Shown here piece after piece: positions 23,500-29,266 of a stretch of 40,301 nt of DNA (its first letter is position 1; each line of letters starts with the position of its first letter). The notes under the pieces were generated by a model that saw only the letters and a list, made by a program, of their open reading frames with translations, made no database searches and had not been told where the DNA came from. The position numbers and the translations under genes are program-made. Source of the stretch: Gemmatimonadaceae bacterium (GTDB lineage: Bacteria > Gemmatimonadota > Gemmatimonadetes > Gemmatimonadales > Gemmatimonadaceae); the NCBI GenBank assembly GCA_013697785.1, contig JACCWE010000153.1, positions 1-40,301 on the forward strand, in the 5' to 3' direction.

Positions 23500-24252
23500 G
23501 TGGACGTACCCTCCGCGCCCCCGCGCGAGAATATTCCGGACTTCGAGGACATTGGAATCTCGGCGTTCACGACGACGCGCGAGGCGGGGAGCTACGACAC
23601 ACTCTCGGGCGAGCCTGTGCGCGACGTGATGCTGCGCTGGTACGGGCTGCGCGGATTTCTGCAGGAGCTCGCGCCGCGCTTCGCGACCGCCTCGCAGGTG
23701 CACGGTACACGCGTCGTAGAGCATGACGGCGTGTGGGAGGGGTGGCTCCGTGTGAGCGAAGCCGACGGGCACTTCGCGCCGCGCAGCGGGACGGCGATGG
23801 CGGTGACGATCGCCGACTGCGTGCCGGTGTTCCTCGCGCATCCGGAAGGTGCGATCGCCTTGCTGCACTCGGGATGGCGAGGGACAGCGGCGCGAATCAT
23901 CGACCGCGCGCTCGCGGCATTCAGTCGGCAGGGCTTCGCGGCGCGCGACCTTCGCATGCACCTGGGCCCGGCGATCTGCGGTGAGTGCTACGAGGTGAGC
24001 GCGGAGGTCGCGCAGGCGCTGACGGGCATCGCGGCTGCACCCAACCGAGAGGCCGCTTCGGGGCGGCCGCACATGGACCTGCGCGCGCTCATCGCTGGCC
24101 ACGCGCGCGAGGCTGGCGTTACCCGCATCACGACGAGCCCGTGGTGCACGCGATGCGACAACGCGCTCTTCTTCTCGCATCGCGCCGGCGACGCCGGACG
24201 GCAGCTCGCGGTGATGGTGGCACGCGAGCCCGCGCGGGTTGACTCGCTCTAA
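23500..24252 (+). CDS. pgeF: Peptidoglycan editing factor / multicopper polyphenol oxidase family
   Basis: 250 residues. This YfiH/PgeF family was long annotated as polyphenol oxidase or laccase; in E. coli it removes wrongly inserted residues from peptidoglycan precursors. The metal-site residues are His68 (SQVHGT), Cys107 (IADC) and His123 (LHSGWRG), with GPAICGECYEV after them. The GTG start at 23500 follows the murA stop by 11 bases; the pairing with murA fits a cell-wall role. Its last bases contain the -35 box of the predicted rimP promoter. Confidence 0.9.
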   Translation: MDVPSAPPRENIPDFEDIGISAFTTTREAGSYDTLSGEPVRDVMLRWYGLRGFLQELAPRFATASQVHGTRVVEHDGVWEGWLRVSEADGHFAPRSGTAMAVTIADCVPVFLAHPEGAIALLHSGWRGTAARIIDRALAAFSRQGFAARDLRMHLGPAICGECYEVSAEVAQALTGIAAAPNREAASGRPHMDLRALIAGHAREAGVTRITTSPWCTRCDNALFFSHRAGDAGRQLAVMVAREPARVDSL

Positions 24253-24267
24253 CTTCAAGCCTAGATT
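24239..24267 (+). promoter_or_regulatory. Predicted promoter of the rimP-nusA-infB operon
   Basis: TTGACT (24239-24244), a 17-base spacer, TAGATT (24262-24267): one of the best sigma-70-type matches in the window. It overlaps the end of pgeF. The expected start near 24274 lies upstream of two hairpins, so its transcript must pass a terminator to reach rimP. Confidence 0.65.
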
Positions 24268-24278
24268 GCATATCGGTT

Positions 24279-24302
24279 GCCCAGTCGTAGTTGCGACGGG
24301 GC
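24279..24302 (+). promoter_or_regulatory. First leader hairpin before rimP
   Basis: GCCC and GTCG (24279-24287) pair with CGAC and GGGC (24294-24302) around the loop TAGTTG, with one A-G mismatch. Its GGGGC (24298-24302) could alternatively pair with GCCCC (24320-24324) in the terminator, which would give two mutually exclusive folds. A role as antiterminator is inference. Confidence 0.45.
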
Positions 24303-24305
24303 CGG

Positions 24306-24339
24306 ATGTGGGGGAGGTTGCCCCACATTTTTTATTTTT
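24306..24339 (+). terminator. Intrinsic terminator/attenuator directly before rimP
   Basis: ATGTGGGG (24306-24313) and CCCCACAT (24321-24328) form a perfect 8-bp stem with a 7-base loop, followed by TTTTTTATTTTT (24328-24339). It ends transcription of murA-pgeF. Only 5-17 bases separate it from the possible rimP starts, leaving no room for a downstream promoter with a leader, so rimP-nusA-infB expression needs read-through. Confidence 0.9.
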
Positions 24340-24356
24340 GTCGCTTGCGAATCGAC

Positions 24357-24815
24357 GTGAACGAAGCGCTGGAAGTCATTGTAACAGAAGAGCTTGACCG
24401 TTTGGCCTATGATCTGGTGGAATTGCGCACCGCGGGCAGTCGCGCGCGCCCCACTCTGCAGCTCCGCATCGACCGGCGTGATGGCGCGCCGATCACCGTG
24501 AGCGATTGTGCGATCGTTTCTCGCGCGGTCGAAACGCGGCTCGAGGCGGAAAAGAAAGTAGGCCCGGAGTACGTGCTCGAAGTGTCATCGCCAGGGATCG
24601 AGCGGCCGCTTCACACGGTCGCCGACTGGCGTCGGTTCGTGGGGCAGCGGGCAAGCGTGTTGAGCCCGGCGCTTCAGGGACGCGCAGAGGTCGAGATCGT
24701 GGGCGTCGAAGGAAATGAGGGAGCGGAGAGCGTCGTCATCCGCACCGCGCAGGGCATCGAACAGCGTATCGCGTTGGCCGACGTCAAGGACGCCCGGCTG
24801 GCATTCACTTGGTGA
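24357..24815 (+). CDS. rimP: Ribosome maturation factor RimP
   Basis: 152 residues. RimP helps 30S subunit assembly. LAYDLVELRT, LRIDRRDGAPITVSDCAIVSRAVE and LEVSSPGIERPL are the standard core; the C-terminal SH3-like part ends at KDARLAF. The start is uncertain: GTG 24357 (used) and TTG 24345 (four residues longer, same length as E. coli) both lack a Shine-Dalgarno, and the ORF extends further into the terminator hairpin. It heads the translation operon, and nusA follows 16 bases after its stop. Confidence 0.92.
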   Translation: MNEALEVIVTEELDRLAYDLVELRTAGSRARPTLQLRIDRRDGAPITVSDCAIVSRAVETRLEAEKKVGPEYVLEVSSPGIERPLHTVADWRRFVGQRASVLSPALQGRAEVEIVGVEGNEGAESVVIRTAQGIEQRIALADVKDARLAFTW

Positions 24816-24831: not shown

Positions 24832-26175
24832 ATGGTCAGCTCCGTAGACATGTTGAGCGCGATCAAAGAGCTTACGAATACGAAGCAGCTCGATCGGTCC
24901 GAGCTGCATCTGCTGCTGCAGGACGGTTTTCTCGCAGCCATGGCCAAGCGCTACGGTCCAACCGTTCAGGCGGAAGTCGAGATCGATGAGGGGCGTGGCG
25001 CGATCAAGATCACGAGACTCCGCAGCGTCGTCGCCGAAGTGACGGATGCGAGCCGCGAGATCTCGGTGGAAGATGCGCAGATCTATGACGAAGGCTTCGA
25101 AGTCGGCGACATGCTCGAAGAGCCGGTCGACTTCGGCGACTTCGGACGCACGGCGATTCAGGCCGCCAAGCAGCGCATCATCCAGCGCGTTCGCGAGCGC
25201 GAGCGCACACGCATCCGCGACGAGTTCGCGACGCGCGTCGGCGACCTGCTCTCCGGCGAAGTGCAGCAGATCGAGCGCGGCAAGCTCGTCGTCATGCTCA
25301 ACAAGTTCCGCGAGGCGGAAGCGATCATTCCGTATCGCGAGCAGAATCATCGCGAGCACTACCATCAGGGGGAGCCGATCCGCGCGGTGCTCAAGCGCAT
25401 CGAGGAGACGCCCAAGGGTCCGCGGCTCATCCTGAGCCGCGCCGATGGTCTGTTCGTGAAGGCACTCTTCAAGCTCGAGGTCCCCGAGATCCAGCAGGGG
25501 ATCGTCGAGATCCGCGCCTCCGCGCGCGAAGTCGGCAGCCGTACGAAGATCGCGGTGTTCTCGCGCGACGACTCGATCGATCCGGTGGGCGCGTGCGTCG
25601 GCCTCAAGGGCTCGCGCGTGCAGGCGGTCGTGAACGAGCTCGGTGGCGAGCGCATCGACATCGTGCCGTGGTCCGCGGATCCGGAGCGCTTCGCGAAGCT
25701 GGCGCTCGCGCCCGCGCGCGTCGCGCGCGTGTTCAGCGATGGCGTCGCGAAGAGCATTCAGGCGGTCGTCGACGAGGATCAGCTCTCACTCGCGATCGGG
25801 CGCAACGGCCAGAACGTGCGCCTCGCGAGTGAGCTCACGGGGTGGAAGATCGATCTTTACTCGAGCCGCGAGTGGCTGGAGCGCGGTGGCGAGACGCCGC
25901 TGTTCGCGCCGCTCCCCGAAGAGGTCTCCGTCGCGGCGGATGTTCGCCTCGCGGACATCGGCGCACTCGGACCGGCGACTGTCGCCGTGCTCGAGGATGC
26001 CGGCTATCGCACGCTGAACGACATCATCGATCTCGACCGCGACGATTTCCTCCGCCTCCCCGGCATCGCGCCGGAAGAAGCGGATCGCATCATGGCCATG
26101 ATCGATGAGCTGACCGAAGACAGCAGTGGTGAGGGCAGTGAGCGTGCAGACTCCGGCGCACTGCCGCCGGCATAG
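24832..26175 (+). CDS. nusA: Transcription termination/antitermination protein NusA
   Basis: 447 residues. NusA binds RNA polymerase and modulates pausing, termination and antitermination. The N-terminal domain (1-125) is followed by S1 (GEVQQIERGKLVVML region), KH1 with GLKG, KH2 with GRNG, and one C-terminal helix-hairpin-helix repeat (ADIGALGPATVAVLEDAGYRT). The start ATG has GGGAG six bases upstream. As the operon has terminators both in its leader and after infB, NusA could tune its own operon, as known in E. coli. Confidence 0.97.
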   Translation: MVSSVDMLSAIKELTNTKQLDRSELHLLLQDGFLAAMAKRYGPTVQAEVEIDEGRGAIKITRLRSVVAEVTDASREISVEDAQIYDEGFEVGDMLEEPVDFGDFGRTAIQAAKQRIIQRVRERERTRIRDEFATRVGDLLSGEVQQIERGKLVVMLNKFREAEAIIPYREQNHREHYHQGEPIRAVLKRIEETPKGPRLILSRADGLFVKALFKLEVPEIQQGIVEIRASAREVGSRTKIAVFSRDDSIDPVGACVGLKGSRVQAVVNELGGERIDIVPWSADPERFAKLALAPARVARVFSDGVAKSIQAVVDEDQLSLAIGRNGQNVRLASELTGWKIDLYSSREWLERGGETPLFAPLPEEVSVAADVRLADIGALGPATVAVLEDAGYRTLNDIIDLDRDDFLRLPGIAPEEADRIMAMIDELTEDSSGEGSERADSGALPPA

Positions 26176-26516
26176 TGGACGCTCCTGCCGCGGCTGCGAC
26201 CAAAAGCGCGGTGGAAGCGAAGATGCTCGGGCTCGTCGGGCTCGGTGTGAGAAGTCGGCGGGTGGTCGTGGGCGTCGAGATGGTGCGCGCGGCTGCGAAG
26301 AAGGGAACGCTCGTGCTCGCGATCGTGGCGCCGGATGCTTCGCGGCACAGTCGTGAGAAGGTGCTGCCGCTGCTGGCGGCGAAGGGCGTGCAGGTGATCG
26401 AAGGCCCCTCGGCCGCAGCGCTGGGGGCGGCCGCAGGTCGAGAGACGACGGCGGCGGTGGGTGTGATCGATCGCGATCTCGCGAAGGGGATTTCCGGGAT
26501 CGCGGAACGTGGTTAG
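26175..26516 (+). CDS. L7Ae/L30e-family ribosomal-type protein (YlxQ-like)
   Basis: 113 residues. LGLVGLGVRSRRVVVGVEMVRAA and GTLVLAIVAPDAS, with K-turn RNA-binding-type spacing, fit the L7Ae/YlxQ family found between nusA and infB in many bacteria. GTG 26175 shares one base with the nusA stop. The usual partner ylxR (DUF448), which normally sits between nusA and this gene, is missing. Exact function is unknown. Confidence 0.82.
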   Translation: MDAPAAAATKSAVEAKMLGLVGLGVRSRRVVVGVEMVRAAAKKGTLVLAIVAPDASRHSREKVLPLLAAKGVQVIEGPSAAALGAAAGRETTAAVGVIDRDLAKGISGIAERG

Positions 26517-26542: not shown

Positions 26543-29266
26543 TTGATCAAGCTTCGAGTGAATGAACTGGCAGGGGAGTTCGGCATTACCAGCGAGGAGC
26601 TCATGACGATGCTCCGCTCAATGGATGTGCCGGTTCGTAGTCATCTCAGTCAGCTGAGCGACGAACAGATCGCGCGCCTGCGTGCACGGTGGGAGCGCGA
26701 AAAGCGCGCGCGCCAGGAGAAGCCGGCAGCGGCGCCGGCACGCCGTCGTCGGGGAACGGCCGCCGCTGCAGCAGCTGCGCCGGTCGTCGCTGCGCCCGTA
26801 CCCGAAGCCGCTCCGGAGGCCGCGGGCACGGCACCCGCTCGTCGTCGCCGAAAGGCGTCGGACATCGCGGCGGCGGCTGAAGTCACAGCCGCGCACGAAG
26901 CCGAAGTCGCGGCCACGGCCGCGACGAACATCGAGCCCGCAGTGTCGCGCCTGGAGGAAGAGCTCCTCGTTGCGGATCCCGCGCCCGAGGCTCCGCCGCG
27001 CCAGCCGATCGAGGAGTCGCGCATCACAGCGTACTCGTCGCCGCCGACGCCCGCACGCCCGTCTGCGCCTCGCCCTCCGGAGGCGAACACGTACAGCCGC
27101 TCCGGCGACGCGACCACCGCTGGCCCCGCGCAGACACCGCGTCCTGCCTCGGGCGGCGACTGGCAGCGTCCGCGTCCCGTCGTTCCAGGACCGCCGCGTC
27201 CGAAGCCCGCCTCCGCCGGCGGCTATCCGCCACGTCCGATCGCGTCCGCAGCACCGGGCGGCGCGTCGGGCTCATCGTCCGCATCGGGGCTCGCTCCTCG
27301 TCGGGATGACAAGCGCGGCGGCGCCGGCAAGCGAAAGAAGGGGAAGCGCGGTTCGGTCGATCAGGAAGCGGTGACGGCGAACATCTCGAAGACGATGACC
27401 GCCATGCGCGGCGCGCCAGCGCGTCGTGGCTCGCGTCGCTCCGACGAGCCGTCGTACCGAGAGGAAGTCGAAGCGCAGCGCATCGCCGAAGTCGAACGCG
27501 AGAAGACGATCGTTCGCGTCAACGAGTTCATCACGGTGAGCGAGCTGGGTGCGATCCTCAAGGTTCCGCCCACGCAGATCGTGACCTTCACGCTGAAGAA
27601 TCTCGGCTTGATGGTGACGATCAATCAGCGTCTCGACTTCGACCAGATCGAGCTGATCGCCTCCGAGTTCGGCTTCCAGGCCGTGCGCGAGGCCGATTAT
27701 GCCGTCGCGGACTCCGCCGATGAAGTGGAAGACGAGCGCGCGGATCTCATCTCGCGACCGCCCGTCGTTACGATCATGGGTCACGTCGATCATGGCAAGA
27801 CGTCGCTGCTCGACTACATCCGCAAGGCGAACGTCGTCGCGGGCGAGGCCGGCGGCATCACGCAGCACATCGGCGCGTACCACGTCACGCTCGCGAACGG
27901 AAAGACGATCACCTTCCTCGACACGCCTGGCCACGAAGCGTTCACGGCCATGCGCGCGCGCGGTGCCCAGGTCACGGACATCGTCGTGCTCGTCGTCGCG
28001 GCCGATGATCAGGTGATGCCGCAGACGATCGAGGCGATCTCGCACGCCAAGAATGCCGGTGTGCCGATGGTCATCGCGATCAACAAGATCGATCTCCCGT
28101 CGGCGAACGTGCCGAAAGTGAAGCAGGAGCTCCTCCAGCACGGCGTCGTGCTCGAAGAGTTCGGTGGCACCGTGCTCGACACGCCGATTTCGGCGAAAAA
28201 GGGGACGGGCGTGCCCGAGCTGCTCGAGCAGATTCTGCTGCAGGCGGAAATTCTCGACCTGCGCGCGAATCCGAATCGTCGGGCGAGCGGCGTCGTCGTC
28301 GAGGCCCAGCTCGATCCGGGCAAGGGTCCGGTCGCGACGGTGCTCATCGAGAACGGCACGATCCGCGTCGGCGAGGATTTCATCTGCGGCATGTTCTCCG
28401 GCCGCGTGCGAAATCTGTTCGACGAGCGCGGCAAGCCCGTGAAGAGCGCAGGCCCAGCAATACCGGTGCAGGTGCTCGGCATGGACGGTGTGCCGATGGC
28501 CGGCGATCAGCTCCGCGTCGTGGAGGATGCAACGTCGTCGCGCGAGATCGCGCAGCGGCGCCAGCGTCTCGATCGCGAGGCGAAGAGCCGGCGCACGTCG
28601 CGCGCAGCGGTGTCGCTCGAGGACTTCATGTCGCAGGCGGCCGCGGGACTCGTGCAGTCGCTGCGCCTGGTGATCAAGGCGGACCAGGGCGGACCGGCGG
28701 AAGCGCTCGCCGATTCACTCGGACAGCTGTCGACGAGCGAAGTGCGCGTCGAGATCATTCATCGCGGCGTCGGTGCCATCACGGAGAGCGACATTCAGCT
28801 CGCGAAGGCATCGGGCGCGATCATCATCGGCTTCCACGTGCGCCCGGACAACAATGCGCGCGCTGCGGCCGAGCGCGATGGCGTCGAGATCAAGCTCTAC
28901 CGGATCATCTACGAGGCGGTCGCGGAAGTTCGCGCCGCACTCGAAGGGCTGCTGCGTCCGGACGAGAAGGAAGTGGTGCTGGGCGAGGCCGAAGTGCGCG
29001 AGCTCTTCAAGGTGCCGCGGATCGGCGTCATCGCCGGTTGCAACGTGCGCAGCGGCGTGATCAATCGCGCCGGCAAGGTTCGCGTCGTTCGCGACGGTGT
29101 CGAGATTTACGGGGGGACGATCGGATCGCTGCGTCGCTTCAAGGACGACGTGAAGGAGGTCCGCGAAGGCTTCGAGTGCGGTATCGGCATCGAGAACTTC
29201 AACGACCTCAAGGTCGGCGACGTGATCGAGTGCTATCGCACCGACCAGATCGCCCGCACCCTCTAG
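26543..29266 (+). CDS. infB: Translation initiation factor IF-2
   Basis: 907 residues. The GTPase positions fMet-tRNA and joins ribosomal subunits. The N-terminal IF2_N domain ([20 protein letters not shown]) is followed by about 230 residues of Ala/Pro/Arg-rich linker, a second IF2_N-like segment ([14 protein letters not shown]), the G domain with GHVDHGKT at 413-420, DTPGHEAF and NKID, and the C-terminal domains with [18 protein letters not shown]. The TTG start at 26543 has GGAGGAG just upstream. The linker is variable in all species. Confidence 0.97.

Follow-up and report, generated by a model that had tools for sequence, protein, structure and literature searches.

Known attenuators upstream of nusA

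Transcription attenuation upstream of nusA has been reported or proposed in several bacterial groups. The rimP-leader, described by Naville and Gautheret in 2010 (PMC2965389), is found in the 5' UTR of the rimP-nusA-infB operon and consists of a GGGc...gCCC stem followed by a U-stretch, 4-130 nt ahead of rimP; its general form has no antiterminator fold. NusA was proposed as the sensor, but RimP could not be excluded. In Bacillus subtilis, NusA is reported to act on its own 5' leader, where it stimulates termination (Mondal et al. 2016, as cited in PMC12288461), and NusA feedback has also been reported in Escherichia coli (PMC6511841). The leader of gbs0413-gbs0418 in Streptococcus agalactiae gives rise to a short RNA that ends 31 nt past the start site, and attenuation was proposed for it (PMC4448216).

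How does the corresponding locus of Gemmatimonadota compare? The stretch of DNA analysed here, 40,301 nt from a Gemmatimonadaceae bacterium (hereafter the window), carries the gene order murA-like, pgeF-like, rimP, nusA, L7Ae-family gene and infB, and all features discussed below lie on its forward strand. The leader of this operon is most likely an attenuator of the known rimP-leader type in a new phylum and not a new type; the literature searched contained no paper linking the rimP-leader to Gemmatimonadota. The most useful new point comes from genomes that have lost rimP.

Anatomy of the leader

The pgeF-like gene (23500-24252; PF02578, with TIGR00726 below its cut-off) lies directly upstream, and its 3' end overlaps the promoter. 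From the region of its stop codon to the GTG start of rimP at 24357, the promoter, two hairpins and a T-tract are all packed together. The -35 element TTGACT (24239-24244) and the -10 element TAGATT (24262-24267) are separated by a 17-nt spacer, and both are conserved among relatives. From their position, transcription is predicted to start at 24272-24275, about 7 nt past the -10 element; no paper on Gemmatimonas start sites was found in the literature searched. The upstream hairpin, H1 (24274-24304), is followed by the terminator hairpin, H2 (24305-24329), GATGTGGGG-GAGGTTG-CCCCACATT, in which 24305-24313 pair with 24321-24329. The T-tract TTTTTTATTTTT (24328-24339) marks the predicted end of a short leader RNA. 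The folding energy of the leader is -30.7 kcal/mol (z = -2.94 against shuffled sequences). The initial annotation had described a promoter, a hairpin and a terminator with a T-run ahead of rimP, and this description is confirmed by sequence, folding and conservation in relatives.

Downstream of the leader are rimP (24357-24815; PF02576), nusA (24832-26175; TIGR01953 above cut-off), which is both the likely regulator and the likely target, a gene of the L7Ae/L30e family in a YlxQ-like position (26175-26516; PF01248), and infB, encoding IF-2 (26543-29266; TIGR00487 above cut-off). Alignment of relatives indicates that the GTG at 24357 is the likely start of rimP, 17 nt past the T-run. An in-frame TTG at 24291 was considered as the start of an N-terminally extended RimP or of a coding uORF. 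In several relatives, however, the frame closes a short way upstream of rimP, giving open frames of 153, 156 and 157 aa in G010, G025 and G043, and the candidate was rejected on this ground.

Comparison with the rimP-leader reveals both shared and distinct features. As in the described element, the window's hairpin is part of the rimP-nusA-infB 5' leader, the stem has a G-rich 5' arm and a C-rich 3' arm (GTGGGG...CCCCAC, or GCGGGC...GCCCGC in a sister clade), the U-stretch follows the stem directly, and there is no visible antiterminator fold. The distance from T-run to rimP also lies within the described range. The differences are that the stem in Gemmatimonadota is mostly GTGGGG...CCCCAC, that the window's family has an additional hairpin, H1, ahead of it, and that the leader also stands ahead of nusA where rimP has been lost. 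Rfam family RF01770 (rimP) shares the gene context, but its gathering score (47 bits) is not reached in the window or in its own genome; among control genomes it matches in E. coli only. A weak match to XIST_A_REPEAT in the same type of search is attributed to chance.

Conservation and specificity of the terminator

The H2 motif is specific to this site. An exact-pattern search with the consensus finds it once in the window, where none is expected, and it occurs only once in the genome even when three mismatches are allowed. A hairpin of G-rich and C-rich arms with a T-run is present in all 82 readable regions upstream of rimP from the order. Across 72 distinct sequences, 96.6% of H2 cells are paired and three G-C pairs in the core are invariant. 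Pairing is kept through double changes at five of the nine pairs (42 cells, compared with 10.4 in shuffled alignments and 0-23 in slid controls).

In a sample of 200 genomes from the phylum, a covariance model of H2 (R1) gives exactly one match per genome in 87 genomes. Among the matches listed, 82 of the 87 lie 4-92 nt upstream of a rimP match. As for the other five, three (G088, G153 and G172) have a weaker rimP match outside those listed, one (G218) is at a contig edge, and one (G096) is followed by nusA instead. With the strict filters of this search, R1 misses other families of the class whose leaders carry the core. By direct reading, [AG]GTGGGG...CCC[CT][GA]C with a T-run is found in 27 of 28 leaders from these families, and AGTGGGG...CCCC[AG]CT or a similar hairpin in four of five genomes of another class. 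R1 reached no leaders outside the phylum; hairpins similar to H2 are found upstream of rimP in Alphaproteobacteria, Clostridia and Sumerlaeota.

Past the T-run there is often GTT or ATT (TTTTTTTGTT; L089-L131), in Gemmatimonadota and likewise in proteobacterial rimP leaders. In one clade (L062-L073), the T-run reaches or nearly reaches the rimP start codon (TTTTTTTTATG), and there is no Shine-Dalgarno sequence.

A promoter ahead of the terminator

TTGACT-17-TAGATT (24239-24267) is the sole sigma-70-like match in the surrounding 10 kb, where 0.8 would be expected by chance. Such a match in a single genome is weak evidence when taken alone. Shuffled sequences give as many promoter and terminator-like sites per 10 kb as are seen here, namely one of each. 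On their own, these two sites prove little, and it is the comparison across genomes that settles whether they are real. A promoter scoring at least 8/12 lies upstream of the hairpin in 68 of 81 leaders, compared with 2.2 expected from shuffles, and the distance from promoter to H2 is similar within clades. In the window's family, the -10 element is typically 33-41 nt ahead of the GTGGGG core, and in one Gemmatimonadales clade of a sister family it is 10-16 nt ahead of the hairpin. The proposal that a promoter precedes the terminator is therefore borne out, and this layout is kept throughout the order and also beyond it within the phylum.

The spacing in the sister-family clade is close to that seen in S. 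agalactiae, where about 31 nt separate the start site from the terminator, as is predicted for this clade. In the window's genus, by contrast, the presence of H1 places the predicted end about 60-65 nt from the start.

Might the terminator merely end the murA-pgeF transcript, with rimP served by incidental read-through or by another promoter? The terminator does lie directly past pgeF, whose transcripts must reach it. However, a conserved promoter is located between pgeF and the terminator, and the motif is conserved in sequence and present once per genome. It also persists where no upstream pgeF was detected (L235-L238). In several members of the clade with the 10-16 nt spacing, rimP starts about 13 nt past the stem; since this leaves no space between stem and rimP, a downstream promoter is excluded in these members. 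In the window itself, little or no room remains for a second promoter in the 17 nt between the T-run and the GTG, as had been suggested. It is quite improbable that transcript ending is the whole function of the element. The conserved order of promoter and terminator, together with the covariation of H2, supports the earlier view that expression of rimP-nusA-infB would need read-through.

The upstream hairpin and the proposed two-state fold

H1 evolves differently from H2. Within the genus (five sequences), 95% of its cells are paired and the changes are one-sided only. Across the family, its sequence drifts and its hairpin-forming potential is maintained on average (mean z -1.15 +/- 0.17, 52 leaders). 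H1 probably plays a structural role, shielding or spacing the 5' end.

The initial annotation had suggested instead that H1 could pair with the terminator, each of the two folds ruling out the other, and complementary segments, GGGGC (24298-24302) and GCCCC (24320-24324), are indeed present. This two-state switch is very unlikely. The alternative fold has an energy of -16.5 kcal/mol, about 14 kcal/mol worse than H1 and H2 together, and H1 is predicted to have completed its folding by the time H2 is synthesised. The alternative pairing is broken in two of five congeners and shows no covariation. Over the whole family, the H1 region pairs with the 3' arm of H2 no more than shuffled sequences do (z -0.13 +/- 0.17). 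Energy, congeners and family-wide pairing thus all speak against the switch.

The leader is retained before nusA after the loss of rimP

Fifteen genomes carry nusA without a detectable rimP (L224-L238: G063, G075, G077, G089, G090, G093, G094, G096, G098, G178, G196, G111, G129, G134 and G140). All are at least 90% complete; nothing in them scores above the Pfam RimP_N cut-off, tblastn gives no RimP match upstream of nusA, and the T-run is separated from nusA by only 71-203 nt. The hairpin and T-run are kept ahead of nusA in all 15, and a promoter scoring at least 8/12 is present in 14 of them.

The NusA tree calls for at least two losses of rimP within family f2. Genera g71 and g75 of family f5 account for at least one further loss, a count based on taxonomy rather than on the tree. 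Together, these suggest three or more independent losses in Gemmatimonadota. It seems that rimP is dispensable in this phylum and has been lost several times.

The leader stays with nusA with or without rimP, which points to nusA(-infB), rather than rimP, as the regulated gene. The leader might partly persist after a deletion of rimP because nusA needs its promoter. This would lead one to expect retention of the promoter alone; a strong terminator between promoter and nusA, stem sequence included, would not be expected to survive if it were unused. Lineages that lack rimP but keep the leader are in effect natural deletion experiments, and they favour NusA over RimP as the sensor.

Which factor sets read-through?

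The reading that fits best, and which we consider likely, is that this rimP-leader attenuates transcription, with read-through set by NusA. RNA polymerase would start at about 24274, and H1 would fold first, followed by the conserved terminator H2. The polymerase would then either stop near 24333-24339, releasing a short transcript of about 60-65 nt, or read through into rimP-nusA-(L7Ae-family gene)-infB. NusA, a stimulator of intrinsic termination, most likely sets the fraction that reads through. At high NusA levels, more termination would leave less nusA and infB mRNA, and no alternative antiterminator fold would be needed. A feedback circuit of this kind, raised in the initial annotation, appears likely from the feedback reported in other bacteria and the conserved arrangement found here. 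In B. subtilis, too, the intrinsic terminator lies in a leader upstream of nusA; according to the citing paper, NusA dependence is reported there, whereas for the present leader we infer it.

Attenuation might be real and yet have another controller, for example cold-shock proteins that melt the hairpin, RimP, or NusG. For the E. coli operon, work cited in PMC6511841 proposed antitermination by CspA-family proteins, and RimP feedback was considered by Naville and Gautheret (PMC2965389). Against this, the E. coli cold-stress paper saw no read-through of the kind that Csp antitermination predicts (PMC6511841), the 15 genomes without rimP keep the leader, and attenuation by NusA is reported in B. 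subtilis (PMC12288461). A controller other than NusA is therefore rather unlikely.

If NusA is the controller, does it recognise the stem? NusA stimulates about 75% of the intrinsic terminators of B. subtilis (PMC12288461), so that regulation could in principle do without a dedicated motif. A more tentative idea, which we hold to be possible but not the favoured one, is that GTGGGN...NCCCAC is a sequence-specific signal of ancient origin, which polymerase-bound NusA reads within 30-65 nt of the start, with nusA as its true target, and that the hairpins of Alphaproteobacteria, Clostridia and Sumerlaeota are the same element. On this view, the hairpin would survive repeated loss of rimP because nusA is the real target. 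The near-invariant stem provides a defined sequence with which to ask whether NusA recognises it or strengthens any terminator.

Unusual rimP loci

Two observations concern rimP itself. In genus g31 (L079 and L080, from G034 and G058), RimP matches span residues 1-96 only and there is an internal TAG stop, so the gene is possibly truncated or frameshifted. In G001, a second rimP locus (L083, G001:C75) has a leader identical to that of L011 (G025:C19) from a different genus; this second locus is probably assembly contamination.
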